The notes below the pieces were generated by a model, which saw nothing but the letters and a program-made list of their open reading frames with translations, had not been told where the DNA came from and did not search any database. Positions 18,132-40,359 of a DNA stretch of 64,000 nt are shown here, piece after piece (position 1 is the stretch's first letter; the number at the start of each line of letters is the position of its first letter). Source of the DNA: Halomonas sp. (GTDB taxonomy: Bacteria; Pseudomonadota; Gammaproteobacteria; Pseudomonadales; Halomonadaceae); assembly GCF_007692655.1 (NCBI RefSeq), contig NZ_REBQ01000114.1, positions 1 to 64,000 on the forward strand, given 5' to 3'. The translations under genes were made by a program, and so were the position numbers.

Positions 18132-18141
18132 CTGTATACAA
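18132..18141. promoter_or_regulatory. TTGTATACAA-type operator, uraD/uraH promoter
   Basis: CTGTATACAA, one mismatch from the palindrome found at four other places beside purine genes. It is 48 bases upstream of uraD and 91 upstream of uraH. The core fits the FadR-subfamily GntR pattern T-N-GT-N2-AC-N-A. The likely binder is the GntR protein at 19864-20580. Confidence 0.6.
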
Positions 18142-18163
18142 TAAATAGCAGTAACGGTACTCT

Positions 18164-18179
18164 TTGACCAATAGGTCAA
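18164..18179. promoter_or_regulatory. Second palindrome in uraD/uraH promoter
   Basis: TTGACC-AATA-GGTCAA, a perfect 6-base inverted repeat with a 4-base spacer. It may be another operator or contribute a -35 element; I found no second copy. Confidence 0.4.
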
Positions 18180-18231
18180 GTTGCACAAGCGAAACAGACA
18201 AAGCCAACAATGCTATCAATGAGGAGTGGCT

Positions 18232-18585
18232 ATGGGACGTTTAACCACCCACGTACTGGATACGGCAAAAGGACAGCCTGGTCAGGGCATCACCATTGAG
18301 GTGTTTCGTCTTACAGGAAGTGAACGTCAGCATTTGAGCACCGTAGTCACCAACCGTGACGGGCGTTGCGATGCGCCTATTTTAGACGGCGATGAGTTTG
18401 AGGCGGGGGAGTACGAGCTACTCTTTCATGCCGGAGACTATCTGCGCTCCCAGGGCGTTGAGGCTGCAGAACCGCGCTTTTTAAACGTTATTCCGCTGCG
18501 CTTTGGCGTTGCGGATGCCAGCCAGCATTATCATGTACCGCTGCTGCTTTCGCCTTATGGGTACTCCACCTACCGCGGTAGCTGA
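18232..18585 (+). CDS. uraH: 5-hydroxyisourate hydrolase (transthyretin-like)
   Basis: Hydrolyses 5-hydroxyisourate to OHCU, step two of urate breakdown. 117 residues with the N-terminal motif [14 protein letters not shown] (active-site His7) and the family-defining C-terminal tetrapeptide [15 protein letters not shown] and [19 protein letters not shown] carry the remaining catalytic positions. ATG 18232 sits six bases after GAGGAG; an upstream GTG overlaps that ribosome site and is unlikely. puuD follows after 60 bases. Confidence 0.95.
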
Positions 18586-18645
18586 TTTGCCTGAAAGCTG
18601 GCTGCCCTGGCTGAGTTTTCAGGTAAACCTAACGGGACTTATTTT

Positions 18646-19848
18646 ATGCAAGCGTACCTACTTGATTTTGCTAATTTGCTGCTGCGCTGGCTGCATGTGA
18701 TTGCGGCTATCGCATGGATCGGTGAGTCGATCTATTTTGTTATGCTGGATAATAGCTTACGCGCACCGAAAGCCGCAGAAGATCGCGAGAAGGGTGTGTT
18801 TGGAGAGATGTGGTCGGTTCACGGTGGCGGCTTCTATCACAATCAAAAGTACGCCACAGCACCCGCCAAGTTACCGACTGATCTGCACTGGTCGTTTTGG
18901 AAAGCCTACACCACGTGGCTTTCTGGCTTTGCGCTGTTTGTTATTTTGTACATGGTTAACCCTAGCTTTTACTTGGTAAACCCCAATAGCTCCTGGCAGT
19001 GGGCCGCTACCATGACCGGCTGGCAGGCGAACTTGCTGGCGCTGGCATTCCTGCTGGGTGGCTGGGTGGTTTACAACGAGCTGTGTAAGCGCATTAGCCC
19101 CAATATGAATCGCGACGGGCTGCTCAGCGTGGCGGTTGCCGTCATGATGGTGGTGGTTGCCTATCTCAGCACGCAGATGTTTACCGGGCGTGCTGCGTTC
19201 TTGCTCACCGGCGCAGTCATGGCGACGGCGATGTCGGCGAACGTCTTCTTCTGGATTATCCCTGGCCAGCGTCGCATGGTGAAGGCCATGAAGGCGGGTG
19301 ATGCGCCAAATCCATTGGATGGCAAGCGCGGTAAACAGCGTTCGGTGCATAACACCTATTTCACCTTGCCGGTCGTATTACTGATGGTGAGCAATCACTA
19401 CTCATTTATTTACTCCCATGAGCTTGCCTGGGTGGTAATGGTACTGTTTATCTTTGCAGGGGCTTTGATACGGCAGTTCTTTGTACTGATGCATGCAGGC
19501 AAAAGCCAGCCAGCGTACCCTGCTTTTGGGGTGGGGCTGATTCTAATTGCATTTTGGCTGGCGGCGCCCACCGCTTCCGTGCCTGATGGTGAGACAACGG
19601 CGGAGCGGCCAGACCAAGCGCAAATCACTCAATTGATGGAGCAGCACTGTGTGCAGTGCCATGCCCGTAATCCTGAACATGCCGGTTTTTCAGCGCCCCC
19701 AGCGGGGTTTGCATTGAATAACTGGGATGAAATTCTTGGTCAAAAAGCGCAGATCCAACGGGTAGTGGCTAGCCGCTACATGCCGTTAGGCAATATGACC
19801 AACATGAGCGACGAAGAGCGCGATATCATTGCCGCTTGGGAGGAATGA
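18646..19848 (+). CDS. puuD: Membrane urate hydroxylase PuuD with C-terminal cytochrome c
   Basis: Oxidises urate to 5-hydroxyisourate in place of soluble uricase. 400 residues: about eight or nine membrane segments in the first 310 (beginning LLLRWLHVIAAIAWIGESIYF) and a periplasmic cytochrome c domain with CVQCH at 335-339 and the distal Met in SRYMPLGNMTNM near 380-388. Electrons should go to the respiratory chain, without H2O2. Overlaps nothing but lies 60 bases after uraH and 15 before the GntR regulator, so all three are likely one transcript. Confidence 0.93.
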   Translation: MQAYLLDFANLLLRWLHVIAAIAWIGESIYFVMLDNSLRAPKAAEDREKGVFGEMWSVHGGGFYHNQKYATAPAKLPTDLHWSFWKAYTTWLSGFALFVILYMVNPSFYLVNPNSSWQWAATMTGWQANLLALAFLLGGWVVYNELCKRISPNMNRDGLLSVAVAVMMVVVAYLSTQMFTGRAAFLLTGAVMATAMSANVFFWIIPGQRRMVKAMKAGDAPNPLDGKRGKQRSVHNTYFTLPVVLLMVSNHYSFIYSHELAWVVMVLFIFAGALIRQFFVLMHAGKSQPAYPAFGVGLILIAFWLAAPTASVPDGETTAERPDQAQITQLMEQHCVQCHARNPEHAGFSAPPAGFALNNWDEILGQKAQIQRVVASRYMPLGNMTNMSDEERDIIAAWEE

Positions 19849-19863
19849 TCAAAGAGGCCAGCT

Positions 19864-20580
19864 ATGAGTGATGCCCAGGCGCCGATAAAACGGCGCACTG
19901 CTGTTAAAGAGGGCGATGAGCGCCACGATGCTATCTATCGTGCGGTGAGCGATGCAATCGTCGAGCAGCGCTTAAAGCCGGGCGCGCGACTGCGCGAAGA
20001 TGCGCTATCCGAGGTATTTGGTATCAGTCGTACCGGTATCCGTAAAATCCTCCAGCGTCTGGCGTTGGAGCAGTTGGTCACCCTGACGCCTCGTCGCGGC
20101 GCCAGCGTCACACGGCCCACGGCTGATGAAGCCAAAGACGTTTTCGATGCCCGTCAATTAATCGAGTGTGGATTGATGCCTGATGTGGCAAGACGCATGG
20201 GCGAAAAGGAAGCAGCGGAGCTGCGTGAACTGGCTCGTCAGGAGCGCGAGGCATTGCGCAGTGGCAAGCAGAGCGTTGCCATTCGGCTATCCGCGGATTT
20301 TCATGTGCGGCTAGCCCAGCTATCCGGTAACGCAACGCTGGCAGAGTTTGTCGAACGCCTCTGCTCGCGCTCATCGCTGATACTTGCAGTCTACGGTCAT
20401 CGTGGCCATTTGGGCTGCGAATCACACGACCATGATGATCTTATCGGCTACTTGGAGGCCGGCAACGGCGAACGGGCCAAAGCATTTATGAGCCGCCACT
20501 TGAAAGCGATCGAAGCGTCGCTTTCGATCGTCGATGAAAAAGATGAAGCCCCCGACCTGCGTGAAGTGTTTGGCCTGTGA
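19864..20580 (+). CDS. GntR-family regulator of purine genes (FCD domain)
   Basis: 238-residue FadR/FCD-type transcription factor with a winged helix at about 22-85 (LSEVFGISRTGIRKILQRL is the recognition region) and an FCD domain with metal-ligand His residues (DFHVRLAQLSGN, GCESHDHDDLIGYL). It ends the uraH-puuD operon, so urate or a ureide is a likely effector. The shared TTGTATACAA-type palindromes at purine promoters fit FadR-subfamily binding, making this the best candidate binder; the RpiR and GntR proteins elsewhere are less well placed. Confidence 0.85.
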   Translation: MSDAQAPIKRRTAVKEGDERHDAIYRAVSDAIVEQRLKPGARLREDALSEVFGISRTGIRKILQRLALEQLVTLTPRRGASVTRPTADEAKDVFDARQLIECGLMPDVARRMGEKEAAELRELARQEREALRSGKQSVAIRLSADFHVRLAQLSGNATLAEFVERLCSRSSLILAVYGHRGHLGCESHDHDDLIGYLEAGNGERAKAFMSRHLKAIEASLSIVDEKDEAPDLREVFGL

Positions 20581-20851
20581 AGTTGTTCACTCAGGGGGTG
20601 ACTAGCAGGTTTTAAAGTGCTCCTTAAAGCCTGCTAGCCCTCTCTATCGTTCACTCCATCACTCCATCATTTCCCTTTCCTACTCTTCTCAGATACCGCC
20701 TCGCGCACCGTTTTGGGCCGTGATGCTGCCTGGGTGCACCTTTATAACGCTCTAGCGACGTATCATTTTTCATGGCAGGTATAAGAAAAAGCAGCCTGCT
20801 TGCGTCATGAGATTAAATTTATCGATAGGCAATTCAAGCGTTAAGACCATT

Positions 20852-20880
20852 ATGTATACAAAAAATTATATTTTTGTATA
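20852..20880. promoter_or_regulatory. Operator cluster: TTGTATACAA-type site plus larger palindrome
   Basis: ATGTATACAA (20852-20861) differs at one base from the shared purine operator. It also forms one arm of a 10-base perfect inverted repeat, TATACAAAAA (20855-20864) and TTTTTGTATA (20871-20880). Positioned about 70 bases before the sigma-54 promoter, where a repressor or an activator could act. Confidence 0.55.
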
Positions 20881-20928
20881 TTAAAAATTTTTACAGCTAG
20901 CTGCTTTTTTTGTTACCAGTCTCTTTTT

Positions 20929-20944
20929 TGGCACTGCCCTTGCA
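20929..20944 (+). promoter_or_regulatory. Sigma-54 promoter of ABC importer operon
   Basis: TGGCACTGCCCTTGCA has the GG (-24) and GC (-12) pairs exactly ten bases apart and matches TGGCAC-N5-TTGCA completely. It is 70 bases before the binding-protein start on the same strand. It implies nitrogen-responsive (NtrC-type) or other enhancer-dependent control. Confidence 0.8.
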
Positions 20945-21014
20945 TTGTTTATAAGCAGCTAAGGCGTTTCAGGCTTTGCATTCTTGCTAAGTAAACAGTA
21001 AGGGGACTGAAAAA

Positions 21015-22652
21015 ATGGTATACAAAAAAATGGTGGCGGCCCTACGTCATTTGCGTCAATCCCAGCGTGTCGCGCTGGTATCGGTAGGCGTTGCGTTATT
21101 CGCGACGCCAGCCCTGTCAGAAGATCAGGTGCTGCGTATAGCGATGACAGCATCGGATATTCCGCTTACGACTGGCCAGCCTGATAGCGGTTTTGAAGGC
21201 TATCGTTTTCTCGGTTACACCATCTACGATGCATTGATCAACTGGGATATGTCCTCTGCTGATGAAGTGAGTGGGCTAACGCCCGGTCTAGCTGACTCCT
21301 GGGAGGTTGATACTGAGGATAGCCGAGTCTGGACCTTTAATTTGCGAGAAGGCGTGGTTTTCCATGATGGCAGCGAGTGGAATGCCGATGCCGCCATTTG
21401 GAACCTGGATAAGATTTACGATGAAGACGCAGAGCAGTTTGATGCCCGTCAAGCAGGCAACGTACGCGGCCGAATTCCTTCCATGGATGGCTACGAGAAG
21501 ATAGACGACTACACCATCCAGTTCACCACCAGTGAACCTGATGCCTGGTTTCCCTATCAGCTCTCTTTTCTACTCTTTTCAAGCCCCGCGCACTGGGAAG
21601 CGTTGGGCGGCGATTGGGATGCTTTCGCCAGTAACCCTTCTGGAACGGGCCCCTTCAAGTTAACGCGCTTGGTACCACGTGAGCGCGCAGTGCTTGAGCC
21701 TAACCTAGAGTACTGGGATGAAGAACGAGTACCACGTTTGACGCGCCTTGAGCTGATTCCTATGCCTGAATCCAGCTCGCGTACTTCTGCGCTGCTTTCA
21801 GATCAGGTCGATTGGATCGAGTCTCCCGCCCCTGATGCTATTGCGCGCATGGAGTCCCAGGGGATGGCGATTACCAGCAACCCCTATCCTCACACCTGGC
21901 CTTATCAGTTCTCTATGCAGGAAGGCAGCCCGTGGCTTGATATCAATGTACGCAAAGCGGCCAACCTGGCAGTCGACCGTGAAGGCCTGCAGGCAATGCT
22001 AGGCGGCTTGATGGTGCCTGCGGTAGGCATTGTGACGCCTGATCACCCCTGGTATGGCGAGCCAACCTTTGAAACCCGCTACGACCCAGAAGAAGCGATT
22101 CGACTACTGGAGGAGAGTGGCTTCAGTCCTGAAAACCCGGTAGAGGTGAAGGTGCTAATTTCCACTTCGGGCTCAGGCCAAATGCAACCTCTGGCAATGA
22201 ACGAGTATATCCAGCAGAACCTTGCGGAAGTTGGCATTGCACTGGACTTTGAAGTGCTTGACTGGGAATCGCTGTTTCCAAACTGGCGGCGCGGGGCAGG
22301 TGATGCCAGCAGCCGTGGCGCCCACGCCACCAACATTACCTTCGCTTGGCTAGATCCTTTCTCTGCCTTCTACCGCTTTATGCACTCCAGTATGGCGCCG
22401 CCTAACGGCTTTAACTGGGGCTATATGAACGACCCAGAGTATGACCGCCTGCTGGACGAGGCAAGGGTGACATTTGATCAAGATGAGCAAGATGCCATTC
22501 TCGCCGAGTTCCATGCACGCATGGTGGACGACGCCGCGTGGCTTTGGGTCGCCCATGACGTTGGTCCGCGCGCCATGCAGTCGCGTGTTAAAGGCTTCGT
22601 CCAGGCTAAAAACTGGTTCCAGGATCTGACCCCAGTCTATATCGAGGAGTAA
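21015..22652 (+). CDS. ABC transporter substrate-binding protein, family 5 (peptide/nickel type)
   Basis: Periplasmic receptor of a Dpp/Opp-type importer, 545 residues with a signal peptide to about residue 36 (ATPALS|EDQV). Family 5 features: GLADSWEVDTEDSRVWTFNLREGVVFHDGS split around residues 94-123, SGTGPFKL near 209-216 and AANLAVDREGLQAML near 314-328. Substrates of the family range from peptides to ureides, opines and sugars. Its place behind a sigma-54 promoter and a purine-type operator points to a nitrogen-rich ligand such as a ureide or purine, but this is inference. A TGGTATACAA sequence spans the start codon. Confidence 0.88.
   Translation: MVYKKMVAALRHLRQSQRVALVSVGVALFATPALSEDQVLRIAMTASDIPLTTGQPDSGFEGYRFLGYTIYDALINWDMSSADEVSGLTPGLADSWEVDTEDSRVWTFNLREGVVFHDGSEWNADAAIWNLDKIYDEDAEQFDARQAGNVRGRIPSMDGYEKIDDYTIQFTTSEPDAWFPYQLSFLLFSSPAHWEALGGDWDAFASNPSGTGPFKLTRLVPRERAVLEPNLEYWDEERVPRLTRLELIPMPESSSRTSALLSDQVDWIESPAPDAIARMESQGMAITSNPYPHTWPYQFSMQEGSPWLDINVRKAANLAVDREGLQAMLGGLMVPAVGIVTPDHPWYGEPTFETRYDPEEAIRLLEESGFSPENPVEVKVLISTSGSGQMQPLAMNEYIQQNLAEVGIALDFEVLDWESLFPNWRRGAGDASSRGAHATNITFAWLDPFSAFYRFMHSSMAPPNGFNWGYMNDPEYDRLLDEARVTFDQDEQDAILAEFHARMVDDAAWLWVAHDVGPRAMQSRVKGFVQAKNWFQDLTPVYIEE
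21016..21025. promoter_or_regulatory. Operator-like sequence across the start codon
   Basis: TGGTATACAA matches the shared palindrome at nine of ten positions and covers codons 1-4 of the binding-protein gene. Binding here would block transcription just downstream of the sigma-54 start. It could be chance within coding sequence. Confidence 0.35.
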
Positions 22653-22695
22653 GTCATGTCAGCGGAGTGGCTATTAATGCCGCTCCGCCCATGAC
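22653..22695 (+). other. Intercistronic hairpin after binding-protein gene
   Basis: GTCATG...GCGGAGTGGC (22653-22671) folds onto GCCGCTCCGC...CATGAC (22679-22695). No U-run follows, so mRNA stabilisation or partial attenuation is likelier than full termination. Confidence 0.65.
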
Positions 22696-22706
22696 CAGGA
22701 GGCAAG

Positions 22707-23660
22707 ATGAATACGTACTTCCTCAAGCGAATTCTGTATGTCATTCCTATCACCTTGGCGGTGAGCTTTTTCTGCTTCTCGTTAGTCCATTTATCGCCGG
22801 GCGACCCCATGGATGCCGTTGTCTCACCCGATGCGCCCAGTGAAGTCGTGGCGATGGTGCAGCGTGCCTACGGTTTTGACCGCCCGCTGCCAGAGCAGTT
22901 TGGGCTGTGGGTAAGTCGTGCTGTCCAGGGGGATTTAGGCATGTCCGCAGCGAATGGCAGGGCGGTGACAACCGAAGTGTTCGGTGCGCTAAAGAATACG
23001 CTGCTACTCGCCATCGCTGCCTCCATGATTGGGTTTTCACTGGGCTGTACGTTTGGCGTATTGGCGGGCTATTACCAGGGTTCGCTGCTTGATCGTTTAG
23101 TCACTGGTTTCGCAGTGGGTGGCGTCAGTGTGCCGCACTACTGGTTGGGCATGCTGTTGGTAATCATCTTTTCTGTCGAGCTGAACTGGTTGCCCTCATC
23201 CGGCGCAGGGCCTGGCAGCTCAAGCGACTGGAATTTTGAGTGGTCATACTTGCGCCACTTAATCCTGCCTGCCGTCACGCTGTCGGTAATTCCCATGGGT
23301 GTGGTGACGCGCACGGTGCGTGCCATGGTGGCAGATGTGTTAGCTCATGAGTTTGTGGAAGCGCTGCGAGCTAAAGGCTTGGCTGAACGGCGTATCTTCT
23401 TGCATGTGATTAAGAATGTCGCGCCCACCGCGTTAGCCGTGATGGGGCTGCAGTTAGGTTATCTATTAGGCGGCTCTATTCTGGTTGAGACGGTGTTCTC
23501 TTGGCCGGGTACGGGGTTATTGCTTAATAACGCTATTTTCCAGCGTGATTTGCCAATTCTACAAGGCACTATCTTGATACTGGCGCTGTTCTTCGTGGCG
23601 CTTAATTTAATGGTCGACCTCATTCAGGCTCGCCTTGACCCACGCATCCAGCGCGGCTGA
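22707..23660 (+). CDS. ABC transporter permease, DppB/OppB type
   Basis: First inner-membrane permease, 317 residues, with an N-terminal segment at 9-30, the HLSPGDPMD motif typical of DppB proteins near 28-36, and about six membrane segments. The EAA loop that docks the ATPase is EALRAKGLAERRIFLHVIKN near 218-237. AGGAGG lies before the ATG. The dppC-type gene follows after 18 bases. Confidence 0.92.
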   Translation: MNTYFLKRILYVIPITLAVSFFCFSLVHLSPGDPMDAVVSPDAPSEVVAMVQRAYGFDRPLPEQFGLWVSRAVQGDLGMSAANGRAVTTEVFGALKNTLLLAIAASMIGFSLGCTFGVLAGYYQGSLLDRLVTGFAVGGVSVPHYWLGMLLVIIFSVELNWLPSSGAGPGSSSDWNFEWSYLRHLILPAVTLSVIPMGVVTRTVRAMVADVLAHEFVEALRAKGLAERRIFLHVIKNVAPTALAVMGLQLGYLLGGSILVETVFSWPGTGLLLNNAIFQRDLPILQGTILILALFFVALNLMVDLIQARLDPRIQRG

Positions 23661-23678
23661 ATTGGCAAGGAGAATCCT

Positions 23679-24575
23679 ATGACATCTACTTCTATTGATG
23701 TTGCCTCAAAAGTTGAGGCGCCTTCTATAGCGCCTAGTCGTGGTTATTGGGGTCCTGTATTTCGACGCTTGAGTCGGGACCCAGTGGCCCTGATTGCGGG
23801 CATCATTCTGCTTTGCATACTTGCCATGGCGTTATTTTCACCCTGGCTGGCGCCCATGGACCCCTACAAAACCAGCATGATCAATCGCTTGCAGCCAATT
23901 GGCACGCCGGGCCACTGGTTGGGCACCGATGAGCTTGGGCGCGACATGCTTTCCCGGCTGATTTATGGAGCTCGCTTATCCCTATTGATTGGCGTTATGC
24001 CTATTGTTAATGCGTTTGTGATTGGCAGTGCGATTGGCATCGTGGCGGGGTTTGTGGGGGGCAAAACCAACACTGTATGCATGCGTATTATTGATGTTTT
24101 TTACGCTTTCCCTGCGGTGCTGCTGGCGATTGCTCTAGCGGGCGCGTTAGGTGCTGGCATTGTCAATTCACTGTTCTCTCTCACGGTGGTGTTTATACCG
24201 CCCATTGCACGGGTGGCGGAGAGTGTCACGACTCAAGTGCGTAGCGTTGATTACATTGAAGCGGCGCGGGCCAGTGGGGCGGGCAGTTTAAAAATCATTC
24301 GTTGCCATGTACTAGGTAACGTTTTAAGTCCTATTTTCGTTTACGCCACTTCTCTTGTCAGTGTCAGCATGATTTTGGCGTCCGGGCTATCTTTTCTGGG
24401 GTTAGGTGCCAGGCCGCCGATGCCCGAGTGGGGCTTAATGCTGAATACCTTACGTGATGCCATCTACGTAAATCCCTGGATTACGATTCTGCCAGGGGTG
24501 ATGATTTTTACGGTGTCGATTTGCTTCAACACGCTCAGCGATGGTCTGCGCTCTGCTATGGATGTCAAATTATGA
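23679..24575 (+). CDS. ABC transporter permease, DppC/OppC type
   Basis: Second permease, 298 residues. Features are the periplasmic loop GTPGHWLGTDELGRDMLSRL near 72-91, six membrane segments, and the EAA loop YIEAARASGAGSLKIIRCHVL near 189-208. Its TGA overlaps the ATG of the first ATPase gene (ATGA), so the two are translationally coupled. Confidence 0.92.
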   Translation: MTSTSIDVASKVEAPSIAPSRGYWGPVFRRLSRDPVALIAGIILLCILAMALFSPWLAPMDPYKTSMINRLQPIGTPGHWLGTDELGRDMLSRLIYGARLSLLIGVMPIVNAFVIGSAIGIVAGFVGGKTNTVCMRIIDVFYAFPAVLLAIALAGALGAGIVNSLFSLTVVFIPPIARVAESVTTQVRSVDYIEAARASGAGSLKIIRCHVLGNVLSPIFVYATSLVSVSMILASGLSFLGLGARPPMPEWGLMLNTLRDAIYVNPWITILPGVMIFTVSICFNTLSDGLRSAMDVKL

Positions 24576-25681
24576 ACGCTGAACGTATTTCTGCTCACGC
24601 CTCTATGCCCTCAAAACAACCATTAGATCGCCGAGATCGTGGCGGGCAAGCACAGCCACTGCTTAGTGTGAGATCACTGCGTAAGCACTTTGTGATTAAG
24701 AAAGACTTCTTTGGACGCCCTGTAAGCCAAGTCCATGCCGTCGATGGGGTAGATTTCGATGTGCTAAAGGGCGAAACCCTGGGCATTGTGGGGGAATCTG
24801 GGTGTGGGAAATCAACCACTGCTCGTTTGTTGATGCAGTTGCTGAAACCCGATGCGGGTGAAGTGATTTTCGATGGTGACCCGGTAGGCAAGCCTGGTGG
24901 CTTGTCACTGCGTGAGATGCGTCGGCAAGTGCAGATGGTGTTTCAGAACTCCTATGCCTCGCTCAATCCGCGGATGAGCGTTGAGGAGTCCATTGCATTT
25001 GGACCACAGGTGCATGGCCTTGGTAAGAAAGAAGCCAACGCAAGAGCGCGCAAGCTACTTGATCAAGTGGGCCTGCTACCCAATCAATTCGCTAGCCGTT
25101 ACCCCCATGAACTCTCCGGTGGGCAGCGTCAGCGCATTAACATTGCCCGGGCCTTGGCGCTTGAACCCCGTTTGCTTATCCTTGATGAGGCAGTATCCGC
25201 TCTCGATAAATCCGTAGAGGCGCAAGTTTTAAACCTGTTGGTCGACCTTAAGCAAGAGTACGGCCTGACCTACCTGTTTATTTCCCACGATCTCAATGTG
25301 GTGCGCTACATCAGTGACCGTGTCATGGTGATGTACCTGGGGCGGGTAGCAGAAATGGGCGAAAGCGAGTCGCTTTATAATGCCCCTGCTCACCCCTATA
25401 CGCGGGCATTGATGTCGGCCATGCCGTCTATGGACCCCGATAACCGCACCCAAACAGCACCACTTGTGGGTGACCCACCTAATCCCATTGACTTACCCCC
25501 AGGCTGCCGTTTTTGCCCGCGCTGCAGTATGGCTGTGGATAAATGCAGCGTTCAGGAACCAGAGCTCGCGTCATTAAATGACCAACAGGTTGGGAGCCGC
25601 CAGCATCAATCAGCATGCTGGCGGGCAGCCGACGTACAGGCGTTAGCCGCGACGCCCATTTCTGAGGAGGTTTTGTCATGA
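24572..25681 (+). CDS. ABC transporter ATP-binding protein, DppF/OppF type
   Basis: One of two ATPases of the importer, 369 residues from the ATG overlapping the permease stop. Walker A GESGCGKST near 75-83, Q-loop VFQNSYASLNPR, signature LSGGQRQR, Walker B LLILDEAVSALD and the switch His in ISHDL are intact. The C-terminus has the Opp-type four-cysteine tail (GCRFCPRCSMAVDKC ... CW) thought to bind FeS or zinc. Overlaps the next gene by four bases. Confidence 0.93.
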   Translation: MNAERISAHASMPSKQPLDRRDRGGQAQPLLSVRSLRKHFVIKKDFFGRPVSQVHAVDGVDFDVLKGETLGIVGESGCGKSTTARLLMQLLKPDAGEVIFDGDPVGKPGGLSLREMRRQVQMVFQNSYASLNPRMSVEESIAFGPQVHGLGKKEANARARKLLDQVGLLPNQFASRYPHELSGGQRQRINIARALALEPRLLILDEAVSALDKSVEAQVLNLLVDLKQEYGLTYLFISHDLNVVRYISDRVMVMYLGRVAEMGESESLYNAPAHPYTRALMSAMPSMDPDNRTQTAPLVGDPPNPIDLPPGCRFCPRCSMAVDKCSVQEPELASLNDQQVGSRQHQSACWRAADVQALAATPISEEVLS

Positions 25682-32435: not shown

Positions 32436-33191
32436 TTATGGCTTAAGTGCTAGATTAAGATCCGAAAGCCCAGCAAACTTGCCGGTAAAGGTTTTGGGTC
32501 GGGGGTAGGCGAGGTCGCCGTGTTTGCTGGTGTGCAGCCCCAGGCTTACCAGAGATTCTGCTAGCTTCAGCGCGGCGGTGACGCCTTCCACGACCGGTAA
32601 GCCGACTTCGCGGCTAATCTGTTGGGTTAAGTTAGCCATGCCTCCGCAGCCTAGAACGATGGCGCCAATGCCATCTTCATCCCGAGCGCGGCAGCACTCT
32701 TCTACAATGCGGGTAAACGCCGCCTCGGGGTGATGTTCAAGATCCAAAACGGGGATTTCAGCGGCGCGTATACGTCGGCAGTGGTGGCTAAAGCCGTACT
32801 GGTGAAGTAAATGCTCGGCGATGATGCCGGTGCGGCCTAGAGACGTAACGATGGAGAAGCGGGTGCTAATTAAGGTAGCGAGGTGAAATGCCGCTTCAGC
32901 GATGCCGATGACCGGCGCACGGGTGAGTTCACGGGCAGCCAGTAAACCGGGGTCACCAAAGCAGGCCACTATATACGCATCGATATTGCCTTCGCGCTCG
33001 CCTTTTAACACCTCTTCGGCAACCCCCACCGCGCTAATCGCCTCATCAAAATGGCTTTCAATAGATACTGGCCCTGCCTCAGGCTGCGACGCGCTAACCG
33101 TAGTGCCCGCCGCTACCTGCTGCTGGGCTGCCTGATGAATAGCGGCTGTCATGGAGGCGGTAGTATTGGGGTTAATGATATGTATCTGCAC
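32436..33191 (-). CDS. Asp/Glu/hydantoin racemase family protein (probable allantoin racemase)
   Basis: 251-residue member of the HyuE/HpxA group. The two catalytic cysteines are C77 in VACFGDPGLLAARE and C182 in VLGCGGMANL; the start MQIHIINPNTTASMT is characteristic. In this family allantoin racemase interconverts R- and S-allantoin so that a stereospecific allantoinase can use both. It is divergent from puuE with two TTGTATACAA operators in between, which supports an allantoin substrate over hydantoins or Asp/Glu. Confidence 0.87.
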   Translation of the reverse strand: MQIHIINPNTTASMTAAIHQAAQQQVAAGTTVSASQPEAGPVSIESHFDEAISAVGVAEEVLKGEREGNIDAYIVACFGDPGLLAARELTRAPVIGIAEAAFHLATLISTRFSIVTSLGRTGIIAEHLLHQYGFSHHCRRIRAAEIPVLDLEHHPEAAFTRIVEECCRARDEDGIGAIVLGCGGMANLTQQISREVGLPVVEGVTAALKLAESLVSLGLHTSKHGDLAYPRPKTFTGKFAGLSDLNLALKP

Positions 33192-33238: not shown

Positions 33239-33248
33239 TTGTATACAA
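33239..33248. promoter_or_regulatory. Perfect TTGTATACAA operator, racemase side
   Basis: Ten-base palindrome 47 bases upstream of the racemase start, at the expected distance for repression. Confidence 0.7.
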
Positions 33249-33427
33249 AAGTAGTGTTATTTCAAGTGTGATGCAAGCTCCAAAGCGCGCCGCATAACAA
33301 AATCGACAGCTAAAAAGTCTGCTTTAACAGCCAAGGTTGGCGCTTTTGAGTCAGTTTAATTCTGTAAATTGTTAAAGCTTCAGGGTTTATTCATGGCAGC
33401 GTTGCGGTTCGTTATTAATCTGGCTAT

Positions 33428-33439
33428 TTTGTATACAAA
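33428..33439. promoter_or_regulatory. Perfect TTTGTATACAAA operator, puuE side
   Basis: Twelve-base palindrome about 140 bases before puuE and 190 bases from the racemase-side copy. Paired sites could allow looping. Confidence 0.7.
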
Positions 33440-33578
33440 TAATTGGCAAATTGGCTGGGTACGCGCGTGAGGCGATTTTTTTGCATAAGCTAGGGCTTAT
33501 GCGGACTGGCGTTGATACGGCCAGCGATTATAAGGGCCAGGGTCTATTCAGTCAGGAATATGAATAAAGGAGTTAACG

Positions 33579-34517
33579 ATGATGTCATCCGCTACGGGTC
33601 ACTACCCCCGCGACTTAATCGGCTATGGGCGTAATCCACCCCATGCCAACTGGCCCGGCAACGCTAAAATAGCTGTTCAGTTCGTGCTGAACTATGAGGA
33701 GGGCGGCGAGAACTGCGTGCTCCATGGCGATTCAGGCTCAGAGCAGTTCTTATCGGAAATCATCGGCGCTCCCGCTTACCCTGATCGCCACTTGAGCATG
33801 GAGTCGATTTATGAGTACGGCTCCCGGGCTGGGGTATGGCGCATTCTGCGTGAGTTTGAAAAGCGCGACCTGCCGCTCACTGTGTTTGGCGTGGCCATGG
33901 CGCTGGAGCGCAACCCTGATGTGGCCCAGGCGTTTAAAGAGCTAGGCCACGAGATCGCCTGCCACGGCTACCGCTGGATTCACTATCAAGAAGTCTCCGA
34001 GCACGTTGAGCGGCAGCACCTTCAGCAGGCCATGGAGATTTTTCAGCGCCTGTTTGGCGAAAAGCCCCAAGGCTGGTACACCGGGCGCGACAGTCCCAAT
34101 ACCCGGCGCTTAGTGTTGGATGAGGGCGGTTTCCTTTACGATAGCGACTACTACGGCGATGACTTGCCTTTCTGGACCCAAGTCACCGATAGCCAGGGCA
34201 GTGAGCATAACCATTTGATCGTGCCCTATACTTTAGACAGCAACGATATGCGCTTCGCCGCCCCCCAGGGGTTTAACACGGCGGATCACTTCTTTAGCTA
34301 CCTGCGCGATGCCTTTGATGTGCTCTATGCGGAAGGGGAGGAGGCGCCTAAGATGCTCTCTATCGGTATGCATTGCCGCTTATTGGGTCGCCCTGGGCGT
34401 TTCCGAGCGCTGCAGCGCTTTTTGGATTACATCGAAACCCATGACCGCGTTTGGGTTGCCCGGCGTGTTGATATTGCTCGCCACTGGGCCGAGCATCACC
34501 CAGCCCCAAAGCGATAA
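33579..34517 (+). CDS. puuE: Allantoinase PuuE (polysaccharide-deacetylase fold)
   Basis: Metal-independent allantoinase family that opens allantoin to allantoate. 312 residues: the start YPRDLIGYGRNPPHANWPGNAKIAVQFVLNYEEGGE (in two stretches, residues 9-44) and YEYGSRAGVWRILREFE are strongly conserved in PuuE; HEIACHGYRW and GWYTGRDSPNTRRL follow. AGGAG stands six bases before the ATG. The RpiR regulator gene follows 24 bases downstream. Confidence 0.94.
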   Translation: MMSSATGHYPRDLIGYGRNPPHANWPGNAKIAVQFVLNYEEGGENCVLHGDSGSEQFLSEIIGAPAYPDRHLSMESIYEYGSRAGVWRILREFEKRDLPLTVFGVAMALERNPDVAQAFKELGHEIACHGYRWIHYQEVSEHVERQHLQQAMEIFQRLFGEKPQGWYTGRDSPNTRRLVLDEGGFLYDSDYYGDDLPFWTQVTDSQGSEHNHLIVPYTLDSNDMRFAAPQGFNTADHFFSYLRDAFDVLYAEGEEAPKMLSIGMHCRLLGRPGRFRALQRFLDYIETHDRVWVARRVDIARHWAEHHPAPKR

Positions 34518-34541
34518 TTAAATTATGAAAAATAGGATGTT

Positions 34542-35417
34542 ATGACGCCGCATATAGGCCAGAGAATTACTGCTCAGTTTGATGAGTTAAGTGCCCAGGA
34601 GCAGCGCGTAGCGAGCTTTATCCTCGATCACTTTGACGATTTGGCGGTGTATAGCGCCGCCGACCTGGCGCGCTTAACCGGCGTTTCCAAGTCGACTGTC
34701 AGCCGCTTGTTCAAGCGGCTGGGGTTCGAGAGCTACCGCACCGTTAAGGATCATGCCCGCCAACTGCGCAATATGGGTGTGCCGTTGGTAATCGACGCCA
34801 ACGCCATGCAGGAAGAGGCCGGAGCGCCGTTTCAGCGCCATCTTCAGCGGGAGCAGGATAATCTGCAGCGCTGCTTGAACGGCATTGCCACGGATCAGTT
34901 TGCCGCCTTGGTGGAACGTCTAAATGGGGCGCGCCATGTAGTGGTGATTGGCTTTCGTAACAGCTACCCCTTAGCGCTGCACTTTCGACAGCAGCTAATT
35001 CAGGCACGTACTCAGGTGCGGGTGGTTCCTCATCCAAACCAGTCGTTAGCGGAAGAGATTGTCGATCTCACCGAGCAGGATGTGGTGGTGTTGTTTGGTT
35101 TTCGCCGCCGCCCAGCAGCATTTGCTTCGCTCATTGATTCACTTGAGCGCTCACCTGCCAAGGTAGCCTTGCTGGCTGACCCCACTGCGGTCAATTTCGC
35201 TTCACAAGTAACGTGGTTTTTTGAAACGCCGCTGGAAAGCCTCTCCGCGTTCGATAGCTATGCCACGGCCAACAGCCTGATCTGCCTGATCGCCAATGGT
35301 GTACTGCACCGTCGCCTTGCAGAGGGTCGAGAGCGAATTAGCGCCATCAGCGATATTTATTCAGATCTCAGTGAGCTGGAAGCGCCGACCATGAGCGTTG
35401 ATTGGAGTGCCCAGTAG
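34542..35417 (+). CDS. RpiR/MurR-family regulator (HTH plus SIS), HpxU-like
   Basis: 291-residue regulator: N-terminal RpiR helix-turn-helix at 1-77 (YSAADLARLTGVSKSTVSRLFKRLG) and a SIS domain at about 120-255 (VVVIGFRNSYPLALHFRQQL, VVVLFGFRRRP). SIS domains usually sense phosphosugars, but RpiR members in purine loci (HpxU) respond to purine intermediates or are unassigned. A 17-base sequence containing GAAAC-GAAA-GTTTC occurs before the following ABC operon and before the YfcC/allE pair and is the likely target. Confidence 0.88.
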   Translation: MTPHIGQRITAQFDELSAQEQRVASFILDHFDDLAVYSAADLARLTGVSKSTVSRLFKRLGFESYRTVKDHARQLRNMGVPLVIDANAMQEEAGAPFQRHLQREQDNLQRCLNGIATDQFAALVERLNGARHVVVIGFRNSYPLALHFRQQLIQARTQVRVVPHPNQSLAEEIVDLTEQDVVVLFGFRRRPAAFASLIDSLERSPAKVALLADPTAVNFASQVTWFFETPLESLSAFDSYATANSLICLIANGVLHRRLAEGRERISAISDIYSDLSELEAPTMSVDWSAQ

Positions 35418-35776
35418 GTTCTTTACCCTGGCATGGTGCATCGCGTCCCTTTGATGGATGAAAACTGCACCAAGACGTTGCGCTTATTTTTATTCAAACT
35501 CTCCTGCCGACGCGGCTTCAATGGCGTTGCGGCTACGCATGCCCTCTAAGCTGCTGTTATAAAATATCTTAGTGACTTCTGGTATCGCGATTGCTTTTAG
35601 GTAATCAGGTGAAACGAAAGTTTCTTTGTTGGGTTTTATGCAACAAAGCTTTCATTCGCTTTGCTTTCATTGCCAAGACCACTACTCATTTCCAAAACCA
35701 CCACTGCTAATTATTCAGCGAATTGTCTCTAGCAAAACCAAGATTTTGCAGAACATGCGCCTGCCAGGAGAGCTTT
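35418..35776. promoter_or_regulatory. Promoter region of polar ABC operon
   Basis: 359 bases without a gene. It holds the RpiR-type site at 35609-35625 and, just after it, the partly repeated CTTTCATTCGCTTTG/CTTTCATTGCC (around 35648-35673), possibly a second, degenerate site. No terminator was recognised after the RpiR gene. Confidence 0.6.
35609..35625. promoter_or_regulatory. RpiR-type operator, copy 1
   Basis: GTGAAACGAAAGTTTCT with the inverted repeat GAAAC-GAAA-GTTTC. The identical 17-mer recurs at 40245-40261. About 150 bases before the ABC binding-protein gene. Confidence 0.65.
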
Positions 35777-36631
35777 ATGAAATCGTTATCCCACCGCTTC
35801 AACAACTCCTTTTCCCGCCGCTTCAAACGTCTACAGTCCGGCGTGTTAGCCACTGGCCTGAGTGCTGCTGTTGCCCTTGGTGCTTTAACCACCAGCCCAA
35901 GCGTTCAGGCGGATGCGTTAGAGGGGATTGAGTCTCGTGGCACTATTCGGATAGCCGTGCCCCAGGACTTTCCTCCCTTTGGCTCGGTAGGTACTGATCT
36001 GCAGCCGCGTGGCTACGATATCGATATGGCGCAATACCTTGCCGACGAGATGGGTGTTGAGCTTGAACTGATCCCTGTTACCAGTGCTAACCGCATCCCT
36101 TATTTGCAGACCGGTCAGGCGGATTTGGTGATCTCTAGCCTGGGTAAAAACCCCGAGCGCGAAGCGGCGATTGATTTTTCAGATGCCTACGCACCGTTCT
36201 TCCTGGGCGTGTTCAGCGCCGATGCGGATGAGAGCGTGGATGACCCTGAAGGATTGGCGGATAAAACGATTGGGGTAACGCGTGGTGCTGTAGAAGACAT
36301 GGAGCTTTCAGAGATCGCCCCGGATTCAACCAGAGTTCAGCGCTTTGAAGATAACGCTACGACCATCTCTGCGTTTCTTTCCGGCCAGGTCGATTACGTC
36401 GCCACCGGTAACGTGGTCGCCGCCGAGATTGCCGAGCGCAATAGCAGTCGTGCTCCCTCGTTGGTGTATCAGTTAAGAGACTCTCCTTGCTACGTGGGTA
36501 TGAACAAAAATGAGCCAGCGCTGATGGAAGAGGTGAATCGACTGATTGCCCAGGCATTAGAAGATGGCACCTTAAATGAGCTATCACAGCGCTGGTTTAA
36601 TGCGGACCTGCCTGAAAACTTCGGCAGCTGA
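35777..36631 (+). CDS. Polar amino-acid-type ABC substrate-binding protein
   Basis: Family 3 periplasmic receptor, 284 residues. A long signal peptide (about 1-47, ending SVQA|DALE) precedes IESRGTIRIAVPQDFPPFG, and GYDIDMAQYLADEMGVELELI is the amino-acid/amidine-binding lobe; DLVISSLGKNPEREAAIDFSDAY follows. ATG 35777 has AGGAGA upstream. The Arg-Asp pair that binds alpha-amino carboxylates is not obvious, so a ureide or other nitrogen compound is possible. First gene of a four-gene importer operon. Confidence 0.9.
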   Translation: MKSLSHRFNNSFSRRFKRLQSGVLATGLSAAVALGALTTSPSVQADALEGIESRGTIRIAVPQDFPPFGSVGTDLQPRGYDIDMAQYLADEMGVELELIPVTSANRIPYLQTGQADLVISSLGKNPEREAAIDFSDAYAPFFLGVFSADADESVDDPEGLADKTIGVTRGAVEDMELSEIAPDSTRVQRFEDNATTISAFLSGQVDYVATGNVVAAEIAERNSSRAPSLVYQLRDSPCYVGMNKNEPALMEEVNRLIAQALEDGTLNELSQRWFNADLPENFGS

Positions 36632-36639
36632 GGTTCACG

Positions 36640-37317
36640 ATGGGTCCAACGCTCGATTTCCTGACTCTGCTGCCCTATCTCAGTGAGCTGCTGCAAGGTC
36701 TTACCACCACGGTCATATTGACCGTGGTGACTACCTTGACAGGCCTGACACTGGCGGTAGCGGTAGCGTATTTACGCGTTAATGGGCAGCTATGGGTGCG
36801 CTGGGGGCTGGGCGGCTACGTTGAAGTGACCCGCAACACTCCCTTTATCGTACAGCTGTTCTTTATCTTCTTTGGGCTACCGGGGCTCGGTATCAAAATT
36901 GATGCCATCACCGCAGCGTTTATTGCCATGACCCTTAACCTGGCCGCATACAGCGCCGAGATCCTTCGCGCCGGGATCAGCGCCACGGCGAAAGGGCAGT
37001 TAGAAGCGGGGCGCGCGCTGGGTATGACTACCTTGCAAAGCTATCGCCACGTAGTGCTGGTCCCGGCTTTTGCGCGGGTCTATCCAGCGCTGATCAGCCA
37101 GTCGATTATCGTGATGCTGGGCTCGGCGGTGGTGTCGCAGATCTCGGTATTTGATCTGACCTACGCCGCCAACTTTATTCAGTCGCGTAATTTCCGCAGT
37201 TTTGAAGTTTACCTGCTGATCACGCTGGTTTATTTGCTCCTCGCCTTTGGCATGCGCCGCAGCTTCATGCTGGTGGGTAAGCGGCTATTCGCCTATCAGC
37301 AAGGAGAGCAACGATGA
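36640..37317 (+). CDS. ABC transporter permease, amino-acid (HisM/GlnP) type
   Basis: 225-residue permease with about five membrane segments; TRNTPFIVQLFFIFFGLPGLGIKI near 66-89 is the family signature and LEAGRALGMTTLQSYRHVVL the EAA loop. Eight bases after the receptor gene; its stop overlaps the next permease by four bases. Confidence 0.92.
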   Translation: MGPTLDFLTLLPYLSELLQGLTTTVILTVVTTLTGLTLAVAVAYLRVNGQLWVRWGLGGYVEVTRNTPFIVQLFFIFFGLPGLGIKIDAITAAFIAMTLNLAAYSAEILRAGISATAKGQLEAGRALGMTTLQSYRHVVLVPAFARVYPALISQSIIVMLGSAVVSQISVFDLTYAANFIQSRNFRSFEVYLLITLVYLLLAFGMRRSFMLVGKRLFAYQQGEQR

Positions 37318-37970
37318 TTGAGTTCACCTTCTGGGACATTTTGCGCAACCTGCTGCTGGCAACCCGCTGGACGATTGTGCTGTCGCTGATCGCCTTTGTG
37401 GGCGGCGCCACGGTGGGGCTGGTGTTGACCTTTATGCGCCTCTCCAGCAACCGCTGGCTGCAGCGTTTAACGGCACTCTATGTGGATCTTTTCCAAGGCA
37501 CGCCGCTGCTGATGCAGTTGTTTTTGATCTTCTTCGGCGCTGCCGCCATGGGGCATCCGATCTCTGCCTGGTGGGCGGCCTCCATTGCGCTGACGCTGTT
37601 TACCAGTGCGTTTCTATGCGATATCTGGCGCGGCTGCTTGGAAGCGGTGGCCAAAGGCCAGTGGCATGCGGCGCGAGTGCTGGGCATGAACTACTTCCAA
37701 TCCATGCGCCATGTGATTCTGCCCCAGGCGCTGCGGCTCTCGATTCCGCCTACGGTGGGTTTCTCGGTACAGGTGATTAAAGGGACGGCGCTGGCCTCCA
37801 TCATTGGCTTTGTAGAGCTGACCAAAGCCGGCACTATGCTCAATAACGCCACCTTTGAACCCTTCACTATCTTTGCCCTTGTGGCACTTCTTTACTTTGC
37901 GCTGTGCTACCCACTTTCATGCTACGCGCGCTATCTGGAGAAAAAGCTCTATGACGCTGGTTTACGTTGA
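37314..37970 (+). CDS. ABC transporter permease, amino-acid type
   Basis: 218-residue partner permease with the same layout: LFQGTPLLMQLFLIFFGAA near 59-77 and WHAARVLGMNYFQSMRHVIL as the EAA loop. The ATPase gene starts inside its last 20 bases, so the operon is tightly coupled. Confidence 0.92.
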   Translation: MIEFTFWDILRNLLLATRWTIVLSLIAFVGGATVGLVLTFMRLSSNRWLQRLTALYVDLFQGTPLLMQLFLIFFGAAAMGHPISAWWAASIALTLFTSAFLCDIWRGCLEAVAKGQWHAARVLGMNYFQSMRHVILPQALRLSIPPTVGFSVQVIKGTALASIIGFVELTKAGTMLNNATFEPFTIFALVALLYFALCYPLSCYARYLEKKLYDAGLR

Positions 37971-38679
37971 TAACGTTCATAAAGCCTTTGGCGATCTGGA
38001 AGTGCTTAAAGGTATTAACCTTTCGGTCGCGCAAGGCGAGGTGGTGGCAATCATTGGCCGCAGCGGATCGGGTAAAAGCACCCTGCTGCGCTGTCTGAAT
38101 CAGCTTGAAAAGCATGACAGCGGGGAGATCACTATCGCCGGTAAACAGCTGGATGCGGCGTCAATGTCGCCCAAAGAGCTAAGCGAAAACGTGGGCATGG
38201 TGTTTCAAAGCTTCAACCTGTTTCCCCATAAAACCGTGGGTGACAATGTTTGCCTGGCACCAATAGTGGTGCGCGGCGAAGGGAAAGCTGAGGTTGAGAA
38301 AATCGCCCGTGAAGTGCTTGAGAAGGTGGGCCTATCGGATAAATACGATGCCTACCCAGCTCAGCTCTCCGGCGGTCAACAGCAGCGGGTGGCGATTGCC
38401 AGGGCGCTAGCCATGCGTCCCAAAGTGATGCTTTGCGACGAGGTGACTTCGGCGCTAGACCCTGAACTGGTGGGGGAAGTGCTGCGCGTGCTGGAAGCGC
38501 TGGCAAAAGAGGGTATGACACTTATCTTGGTCACCCACGAGATGAGCTTTGCCCGTGATGTGGCCGACCGAGTAGTGTTTATGCACCAGGGGCGCATCCA
38601 TGAAGAGGGCGCCCCCAGCGAACTGTTTACCAACCCGCAAACGGCCGAACTGAAGCAGTTTATTTCCGCCGTGCTCTAG
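37951..38679 (+). CDS. ABC transporter ATP-binding protein, amino-acid (GlnQ) type
   Basis: 242-residue ATPase. Walker A GRSGSGKST near 36-44, Q-loop VFQSFNLFPHKTV, signature LSGGQQQR, Walker B VMLCDEVTSALDPEL and VTHEMSFA are intact. The ATG at 37951 (GGAG ten bases before) makes a start typical of GlnQ proteins (TLVYVDNVHKAFGDLEVLKGI-like opening). Its stop overlaps the convergent YfcC gene by two or more bases, so no terminator separates them. Confidence 0.93.
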   Translation: MTLVYVDNVHKAFGDLEVLKGINLSVAQGEVVAIIGRSGSGKSTLLRCLNQLEKHDSGEITIAGKQLDAASMSPKELSENVGMVFQSFNLFPHKTVGDNVCLAPIVVRGEGKAEVEKIAREVLEKVGLSDKYDAYPAQLSGGQQQRVAIARALAMRPKVMLCDEVTSALDPELVGEVLRVLEALAKEGMTLILVTHEMSFARDVADRVVFMHQGRIHEEGAPSELFTNPQTAELKQFISAVL

Positions 38680-40115
38680 CCGGTCCACTGGATTGCCTGG
38701 GCAAAAATTAGAAAGCCCAGTGCAATCGCGACCCATACGCAAAAAAGTGGGAAGAAGAATTTGACCCACTTTTGCCATGGTACACCCGCCAGTGCCAGGG
38801 TCGCCATAAAGTAACCCGAGGTTGGGTAGAGGATATTGCCAATGCCGTCACCGAGCTGGAAAGCTAATACCGCTGTTTGGCGGGTAACGCCAATAATGTC
38901 GGAGAGTGGTGCCATCAGCGGCATAGTGACTAGGGCCTGGCCACTGCCGGAAGGGACGATGAAGTTGAAGCCTAGTTGAGCGAAGAACATGCCAATAGCA
39001 GAAAGCAGGGTGGGCAGGCCACCGACAAGATTGCCAAGCCCAAACACCAGGGTGTCCATTATTTGGCCATCCTCCAGCATGACGGCCACACCCCGTGCGA
39101 CGCCCGCAATCATGGCCCCGACCAATACATCGCGGAAGCCCTGGTTGAAGCCTGAGCATATCTCGTCCGTGTCGAGCCCTGCGATAAGGCCAACGACAAT
39201 GCCCATGATGATAAACAGCCCCGCCATCTCCATCATGAACCAGCCTTGCTGCAGTACGCCATAAACAAGCACGGCGAAGAAAGCGAAGGTGGCGATGGCT
39301 GCCAGCTTCTGGCGAGCGGTAGCAATTAATGCGGGGCTATCATCAGCGTGTTGGTAGAGCGTGCGTTTTTCAGATTCGCTAGCGTCACTGCTCAGTAAGC
39401 TGAGGGACGGCGTGTGACGTACCCTACGAGCGTAGCGCATGACGAAGAAAATGGCTGCCGCCAGCATGGCAACAAACGCCATGATGCGCAGGCCATAACC
39501 AGAGTAAAGGGGAAGATCTGAGAGCTGCTGGCCAAGCCCGGTATTGATGGGATTGAGCACCCCCGTCGTGAACCCAACGGTGGTGGCGCAAAGCGCCACT
39601 GCCGCTGCGGTGACTGAATCGAAGCGTAAGGCAATCATTAACGGCAGGATGACCGGTACATAAACCAGTGCCAGCTCTTGCGTACCGATAACCGTTGCAA
39701 TCAGGGCAAATACCGTCATCAGCACGGGGATAGTGAGCAGGCTCTGCCGTGCAAAGCGTCGCGTTAGCTTATCAACGCCTATTTCAATAATGCCGGTGCG
39801 CCTTAGCACCATGAACATCCCGCCAATCATAAAGGTAAAAAAGACCACTTCACCGGCGCTCATCAAGCCATTGGGAATCGCCAGCATAAAGTCGACGATA
39901 CCAATGGGCGACGAGGCGATCTGTTCATAAGACGTAGGGTCAATAGTGACACGGCCGTCTGGACCTGGAACGCGTTCAAATTGTCCTGCGGGTACAAAGT
40001 GAGTCGCTAGCGCGGCCAAACCGATAAAGATGAACAGCACTACGTAGATGTCAGGGATTCTGCACCAACTTTTTTTAGGCGTTGGGCTATCGGGAGTGGG
40101 AGTTGGTTGGGACAT
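38676..40115 (-). CDS. YfcC-family permease (DcuC/ArsB-like superfamily)
   Basis: 479-residue secondary transporter with about 12 membrane segments, of the YfcC/C4-dicarboxylate anaerobic carrier type: IPDIYVVLFIFIGLAALATHFVPAGQF near the N-terminus (two stretches), GVLNPINTGLGQQLSDLP near 190-207 and PSGSGQALVTMPLMAPLSD near 390-408. Family substrates are carboxylates, amino acids or peptides and mostly unproven. ATG 40115 has GAGG six bases before. It is divergent from allE and shares with it both an RpiR-type and a TTGTATACAA site, so a ureide is a fair guess. Confidence 0.87.
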   Translation of the reverse strand: MSQPTPTPDSPTPKKSWCRIPDIYVVLFIFIGLAALATHFVPAGQFERVPGPDGRVTIDPTSYEQIASSPIGIVDFMLAIPNGLMSAGEVVFFTFMIGGMFMVLRRTGIIEIGVDKLTRRFARQSLLTIPVLMTVFALIATVIGTQELALVYVPVILPLMIALRFDSVTAAAVALCATTVGFTTGVLNPINTGLGQQLSDLPLYSGYGLRIMAFVAMLAAAIFFVMRYARRVRHTPSLSLLSSDASESEKRTLYQHADDSPALIATARQKLAAIATFAFFAVLVYGVLQQGWFMMEMAGLFIIMGIVVGLIAGLDTDEICSGFNQGFRDVLVGAMIAGVARGVAVMLEDGQIMDTLVFGLGNLVGGLPTLLSAIGMFFAQLGFNFIVPSGSGQALVTMPLMAPLSDIIGVTRQTAVLAFQLGDGIGNILYPTSGYFMATLALAGVPWQKWVKFFFPLFCVWVAIALGFLIFAQAIQWTG

Positions 40116-40244
40116 GCTATGCCTCGCGTTATAGAGCTGCCACCCAGGATGGCGATTATTATTAATGTTTAACCTTAGCAACGATCGTGTCAGATAGAAC
40201 GTGAGGTTGCTGTTTCTGGTCGCGGACCGTATCGTTTTAAAATT

Positions 40245-40261
40245 GTGAAACGAAAGTTTCT
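40245..40261. promoter_or_regulatory. RpiR-type operator, copy 2
   Basis: Identical 17-mer to 35609-35625. A complementary half-site GTTTCAC follows at about 40283-40289. Lies 130 bases before the YfcC gene and 136 before allE. Confidence 0.65.
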
Positions 40262-40343
40262 AAAGACGTTACTATTGGGAGGATTGTTTCACAAGGGTTC
40301 AGCTAAAGAATCCGGTTAAAGATCGCTTTAATGTAGTCAACTA

Positions 40344-40359
40344 ATCTTGTATACAAGAT
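40344..40359. promoter_or_regulatory. 16-base perfect palindrome containing TTGTATACAA, allE promoter
   Basis: ATCTTGTATACAAGAT reads the same on both strands. The most symmetric of the shared purine operators; it ends 37 bases before the allE start. Confidence 0.75.

Follow-up and report, generated by a model that had tools for sequence, protein, structure and literature searches.

A conserved palindrome and a predicted GntR/FCD repressor of urate and ureide genes in Halomonas

Closest described systems

The closest described regulator is UgmR (PA1520) of Pseudomonas aeruginosa, a GntR-family protein that represses the allantoin and gcl clusters and whose repression is reportedly relieved by urate; the same source ties the pyruvate kinase of this organism to allantoin use, with pykF being allantoin-induced (PMC12694930, excerpted text). 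Operators of the FadR subfamily of GntR proteins consist of TKGT and ACMA boxes with a 2-nt spacer (TKGT-N2/3-ACMA), and this GT-N2-AC geometry is common to HpxS, MdcY and other members, HpxS being likened here by name only (PMC4494728, excerpted text). Here, a 64-kb stretch of Halomonas sp. DNA (contig NZ_REBQ01000114.1 of a 4.05-Mb assembly; hereafter, the window) was analyzed, in which copies of the palindrome TTGTATACAA lie at the promoters of two separated blocks of purine-degradation genes. A preliminary description of this DNA had proposed that one operator joins both blocks under the GntR protein encoded at 19864-20580. Conservation of the site, its linkage to this GntR and the weakness of an RpiR alternative support the proposal well, and we assign a probability of roughly 0.85 to the reading that this GntR/FCD protein represses an autoregulated urate-to-ureidoglycolate regulon by binding TTGTATACAA.

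The protein would best be read as a regulator like UgmR with an enlarged regulon. The two systems share the GntR family and purine/ureide targets, and the operator was found in front of urate and allantoin catabolic genes, as in a UgmR-type system, while the Halomonas regulon would differ by adding a racemase and two ABC importers. UgmR-like clusters (allA, allantoicase, uraD, puuE and xanthine permease) are also present in loci L181-L183 (L, G and C denote loci, genomes and contigs of the own assembly, G000 being the own genome). Homologues in this gene order (L182, L183) are 36-40% identical to the window GntR, and UgmR itself was likened by gene order and targets. UgmR-like GntR control of purine catabolism is already known, and the window protein would be a further such regulator, with predictions for two importers. 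A search of the open-licence literature with TTGTATACAA gave no paper judged, from titles and abstract starts, to concern this regulator, and novelty of the regulon is not claimed. With these data, a motif first picked by eye becomes a testable regulon for a bacterial family.

Operator copies in the window and the genome

Block one runs uraD (minus strand), uraH, a PuuD-type urate oxidase, gntR and an Opp/Dpp-type ABC operon. Block two consists of a racemase (minus strand), puuE, rpiR, a polar-amino-acid-type ABC importer, yfcC (minus strand), allE, allA and pyruvate kinase. The enzyme genes, the regulator and their operators are the following:

17542..18084, minus strand: uraD, OHCU decarboxylase (TIGR03164, 203.8 bits, cut-off 96.25)
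18132..18141, unstranded: operator CTGTATACAA in the uraD/uraH divergent promoter (motif search; core site in 74/76 related divergons)
18226..18585, plus strand: uraH, hydroxyisourate hydrolase (TIGR02962, above cut-off)
18646..19848, plus strand: membrane urate oxidase with a cytochrome c-like end (PF06181, 405.8 bits), which we take to be puuD
19864..20580, plus strand: GntR/FCD protein, predicted as a likely UgmR-type repressor (PF00392, 50.4 bits, cut-off 27; FCD domain PF07729, 74.8 bits, cut-off 24.3)
32436..33191, minus strand: Asp/Glu/hydantoin racemase family (PF01177), probable allantoin racemase by inferred substrate
33239..33248, unstranded: perfect operator at the promoter of the racemase gene, whose open reading frame (ORF) starts 47 bases away (motif search)
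33429..33438, unstranded: perfect operator at the puuE promoter (motif search)
33579..34517, plus strand: puuE, allantoinase (TIGR03212, 536 bits, cut-off 424.6)
40347..40356, unstranded: perfect operator within a 16-bp palindrome (40344-40359), 40 bases 5' of the likely allE start
40358..41227, plus strand: allE, (S)-ureidoglycine aminohydrolase (NF008376, 536 bits; NF040771, bifunctional allantoicase/UGlyAH, 511 bits; both above cut-off)
41237..41722, plus strand: allA, ureidoglycolate lyase (NF009932, above cut-off)

Motif search with TTGTATACAA at up to one mismatch gave six matches in the window, at 18132, 20852, 21016, 33239, 33429 and 40347, which are the six positions named by the preliminary description. 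The mean expectation was 1.23, and none of 100 shuffles reached six. Around the 33429 copy, 33428-33439 forms a 12-bp palindrome, and the 16-bp palindrome of 40344-40359 was found again in several relatives. The listed allE ORF begins within this palindrome, with the likely start being ATG 40397. Using a position weight matrix (PWM) built from the sites of relatives, the six window sites were the top six 16-mers in the 64 kb (24.1 to 14.5; next 9.6). Unrelated genes of the window, including ilvY, ilvC and modF between the two blocks, were without a site, in agreement with the earlier observation.

The preliminary description had proposed a genome-wide scan and a comparison across relatives as checks. 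The scan found three perfect copies in the whole assembly, all inside the window and none at random genes, with 0 for the reversed-pattern control and an order-1 expectation of about 2.2. Six core sites lie off the window in the own genome: a conserved one on contig C12, two on C46 around another FCD GntR, one near a contig end, and two inside MCP/PAS-like and rimM-like ORFs. The source assembly is 90.6% complete, so that absences in the own genome are weak.

Conservation in relatives

For the comparison, 80 named loci were fetched via their GntR from Vreelandella, Halomonas, Billgrantia, Litchfieldella and others. Filters were passed by 76 loci for uraD/uraH, 53 for racemase/puuE and 47 for allE, the others having missing, cut, turned or further-apart genes. 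Gene ends in relatives were taken from tblastn and a simple ORF caller, and distances are approximate.

The core site was kept at uraD/uraH in 74 of 76 loci, one each, and at racemase/puuE in 51 of 53 (53 of 53 when TTGTACACAA is included), the latter with 99 core sites in all; it was also present at the oppA-like gene in 5/5 loci. Shuffle means for these regions were at most 0.25, and the control regions had no site (ilvY/ilvC divergon 0/16, pyk upstream 0/16; total 0/32). When all 1024 palindromes were ranked at racemase/puuE, TTGTATACAA came first (43/53; next 4), and a pooled one-mismatch count also favoured it (134/176). Elsewhere the ranking was unhelpful: perfect copies number 0/76 at uraD/uraH and 2/47 at allE, and other palindromes rank higher there.

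Of the 61 same-genus genomes searched, 57 have a GntR of nearly full length and at least 68% identity, and two more have it in split form. Neither G042 (a 66% complete genome) nor G052 yielded it; puuE, too, is missing from G052, and in G042 puuE and the two racemase/puuE sites are retained. The 15 complete relatives contain 51 perfect copies, of which 35 are no more than 30 kb from gntR, compared with 0.76 expected; each of the 15 genomes has at least one copy at such a distance, and the reversed pattern occurs 11 times in all. Two of the 16 perfect copies lying farther than 30 kb were looked at.

Assignment of the regulator

The recognition helix of the window GntR carries S55-R56-T57 (SRT), as do six family members aligned with it. 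Across the class, 10 of 229 genomes, the own included, had a GntR match at E 1e-30, and 13 other loci with 34-52% identity were obtained. The nine SRT homologues among these 13 have a core site near the gene in eight cases, five of them perfect, the exception being L178, whereas none of the four non-SRT homologues (SRA, SRS, SRS and NRN) has one within 3 to 3.7 kb (Fisher p 0.007, for a grouping made after the data were seen). The operator is kept next to homologues that are only 35-40% identical. The fit to FadR-subfamily sites noted in the preliminary description also holds, since TTGTATACAA, taken from conserved sites, matches the published TKGT-N2/3-ACMA consensus.

In the proposed mechanism, a dimeric GntR would bind TTGTATACAA (GT-AT-AC core with T-rich and A-rich flanks) and cover the promoters of uraD, uraH-puuD-gntR, the racemase, puuE and allE-allA(-pyk), where it could block RNA polymerase. 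Release would be caused by a purine intermediate, most likely urate by analogy with UgmR. Because short gaps (60 bp between uraH and puuD, 15 bp between puuD and gntR) place gntR in a uraH-puuD-gntR unit, the repressor would control its own gene through the 18132 operator.

A second candidate for the binding protein is encoded in block two:

34542..35417, plus strand: RpiR-family regulator, accessory (PF01418 and PF01380)

RpiR proteins bind AT-rich palindromes too, and rpiR lies directly downstream of puuE and is present in 19 of the 53 racemase/puuE loci, all 19 with the site. Binding of the palindrome by RpiR is nevertheless very improbable. The other 34 loci, all of which have the site, yielded no rpiR at 55% identity or above (some of these loci end early, and rpiR elsewhere in their genomes was not looked for), and in 28 loci allE comes after puuE without rpiR between. 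Furthermore, seven rpiR-allE units lack the site, the gene adjoining it in the distant genomes is that of the GntR, and the GT-N2-AC form is of the FadR-subfamily GntR type (PMC4494728, excerpted text). RpiR was rejected as the binder since the site is retained without rpiR.

At allE, the site appears to follow the transcription unit. It was present upstream in 7 of the 8 loci where allE comes after yfcC or the polar ATPase gene and would need its own promoter, and was absent from all 28 loci where puuE directly precedes allE and from all 4 where allA precedes. The preliminary description had also counted YfcC, with reservation, in ureide metabolism, and this part did not stand: no yfcC precedes allE in L074 and L185 and the site is still there, while in the window the site is 40 bases from allE and about 165 from where the yfcC ORF starts. 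Regulon membership of YfcC is thus unsupported, the site following allE rather than yfcC.

Several observations weigh against control by the window GntR as set out above or qualify the set of sites. The 80 loci were chosen by their GntR and are hence unable to show GntR absence. With one mismatch allowed, the genome shows no excess of matches (38 versus 55 for the control); this count was discarded as uninformative, and the imperfect sites consequently rest on conservation rather than on number. Ureide linkage predicts the site less well than the helix does: within 20-kb windows, a site near the gene was seen in 8 of 10 linked loci and in 0 of 3 others (L176 having a copy with one mismatch some 5 kb off, and L174 lying on a contig of just 3 kb), L175 being ureide-linked but SRS and siteless, and L178 being SRT and ureide-linked without a site; linkage was dropped as a predictor. 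The uraD/uraH divergons of L127 and L156 bear only weaker sites, in G002 (L198) puuE adjoins gntR and the interval between the two contains no core site, and in the 20-kb region of G009 (L068) gntR and perfect sites occur although no gene for a ureide enzyme was found there at the applied threshold. The seven rpiR-allE units have not even a weak operator in front and are a real exception. Finally, the unrelated FCD GntR on C46 is also SRT and lies between two one-mismatch copies (L018 4001 and 15377), which makes cross-talk possible.

This last case favours an explanation in which several FCD-type GntR proteins with SRT share the operator, by joint control or cross-talk, and so do G001, G021 and G045, where a perfect site near a uraD paralogue is accompanied by a second GntR in the region. 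We consider it unlikely, though deserving some weight, since most perfect copies track the orthologue of the window GntR, whose own operon carries the site, and since the second GntR in G001 (L190) has SRS, not SRT. Around the C46 regulator, orthologues of the aconitase-like gene are only 54-61% identical, and the DctP gene had no orthologue at E 1e-120 in 12 genomes.

Operator geometry and tuning

Upstream of uraD, the distance to the site is 24-64 bp in 66 of 74 loci, and upstream of the racemase it is 25-58 bp in 51 of 53. The longer the racemase/puuE intergenic region, the farther apart are its two sites (r 0.78, n 36), which is the published mark of site pairs acting on separate operons. 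Among FadR-subfamily double-site divergons, racemase/puuE fits the class in which each site has its own operon, with the difference that neither racemase nor puuE encodes the regulator (Suvorova 2015, PMC4494728, excerpted text). Of the 36 pairs, 30 have spacings of 163-195 bp, which group around 171, 182 and 193, and the other 6 have spacings of 252-351 bp; DNA looping or helical phasing is not claimed, since spacing follows intergenic length. In about half of 45 racemase promoters a weak second box stands 21 bp away (33218 in the window), and another in the window is 22 bp from 20852. These boxes are a hint only.

The first base of the uraD/uraH operator is C in 35, A in 21, G in 19 and T in none of 75 sites, the window included, and this base has changed 17 times or more along the GntR tree; the weaker sites of L127 and L156 begin with G and A as well. 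By our own estimate, which ignores mutation bias, the chance of missing T over 17 free changes is about 1 in 1000 ((2/3)^17). At racemase/puuE, on the other hand, no form is as frequent as the perfect one (57 of 122 sites). A weaker operator thus seems to be selected for at the urate step, the perfect palindrome being avoided there and kept at the allantoin steps. Occurring naturally in two strengths, with a perfect copy at puuE and an imperfect one at uraH, these operators could serve for the study of graded repression. The exception is G051 (L210 2248), with a perfect copy before uraH and no divergent uraD in the stretch seen, and it lowers the odds of a wider reading, in which a genus-wide urate/ureide regulon recruits two uncharacterized ABC importers (Opp-type and NMT1/SsuA-type) with operator strength tuned by promoter. 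This wider reading is tentative and somewhat more doubtful than probable.

Importers

Downstream of gntR, the following elements were located:

20852..20861, unstranded: upstream operator ATGTATACAA of the Opp-type ABC operon (TGTATAC invariant in 6/6 species)
20874..20883, unstranded: weak second box TTGTATATTA, 22 bp from 20852 (PWM 8.5; partly conserved)
20928..20944, plus strand: sigma54-type (-24/-12) promoter TTGGCAC-N5-TTGCA of the Opp-type operon (conserved)
21016..21025, unstranded: downstream operator TGGTATACAA over the start codon of the Opp-type substrate-binding protein (invariant in 6/6 species)
21015..26706, plus strand: Opp/Dpp-type ABC importer operon with a substrate-binding protein, two permeases and two ATPases (profile matches)

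As in five of the 80 named loci, gntR of the window is followed by the Opp-type operon. The sigma54 consensus has GG at -24 and GC at -12 (TTGGCAC-N5-TTGCW), and TTGGCACTGCCCTTGCA at 20928-20944 matches it with 0 mismatches, as the sole exact match in the window, although no enrichment is seen when up to two mismatches are allowed (26 versus 27.8). The invariant parts of the six promoters are TGTATAC, 17 bases surrounding the site at the start codon, and TTGGC...TTGCATT, and the rest is diverged. The two operators would bracket this promoter, which the preliminary description had overlooked, so that the importer would need nitrogen limitation plus a ureide signal. That these sites are due to chance or coding conservation, with control by sigma54/NtrC alone, is improbable: the 21016 copy does overlap the ATG and coding sequence of the oppA-like ORF, and the upstream copy has two mismatches in 2 of 6 species, but TGTATAC and the 17 bases stayed invariant in 6/6 species in an otherwise diverged promoter. 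Membership of the Opp-type importer in the regulon behind a conserved sigma54-type promoter is therefore supported at the level of sequence, as had been predicted for the ABC operon, both operators being kept in the six species.

An NCS1 permease (cluster c4, 54 loci) stands near the racemase in relatives, and no close copy was found in the own genome or G043 (best 32%), both of which have the Opp-type importer. Replacement of the permease by the importer is only suggested, because G010 carries both (permease at 95%).

Outside the window, an NMT1/SsuA-type operon (substrate-binding protein, ATPase and permease) on C12 has TTGTATACAC at its start (G000:C12:9166-9175; L016 4001-4010) and is divergent from a BCCT transporter. 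A perfect TTGTATACAA was found in 9/9 orthologues of 85-90% identity (12 genomes searched, three without an orthologue); two further relatives of 42-44% identity are outside this count. The operon is about a megabase from gntR in relatives, and no FCD regulator was found around it in 16, 19 and 20 kb of three genomes, so its control would be in trans. The unlinked importer probably belongs to the regulon. For both importers, whose families indicate only peptide/nickel or sulfonate transport, purines, urate or ureides are suggested as the substrate class.

A third importer is part of block two:

35723..38679, plus strand: polar-amino-acid-type ABC importer downstream of puuE-rpiR, with no operator of its own (no match in 35418-35722)

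Other sites and neighboring genes

In 20 of 75 loci, a site lies beyond the uraD stop. A general role as auxiliary operator was considered for it and rejected. Ten of these are 33-68 bp before a xanthine/uracil-type permease; nine lie between convergent uraD and a phasin-like gene (e.g., L089 7566), possibly as a fossil or auxiliary site, and one is near an unidentified gene. A perfect site was also found at the start of a chemoreceptor (methyl-accepting chemotaxis) gene near uraD (L141 5458, L142 5609 and L152 5623), in 3 of the 7 loci with a chemoreceptor gene of this sequence cluster, which suggests purine or ureide taxis. In L193 (6449-11619), L190 and L191, aceE/aceF-like 2-oxoacid dehydrogenase genes come after a uraD paralogue whose start bears a perfect TTGTATACAA, and a second GntR is encoded in the region.

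The end of block two contains:

41782..43302, plus strand: pyruvate kinase, possibly in the allE unit (gap of 59 bp)

Within 41782-45911, the start of modA lies inside the pyruvate kinase ORF, and modB and an ATPase gene follow; the molybdate uptake genes may share the allE unit.

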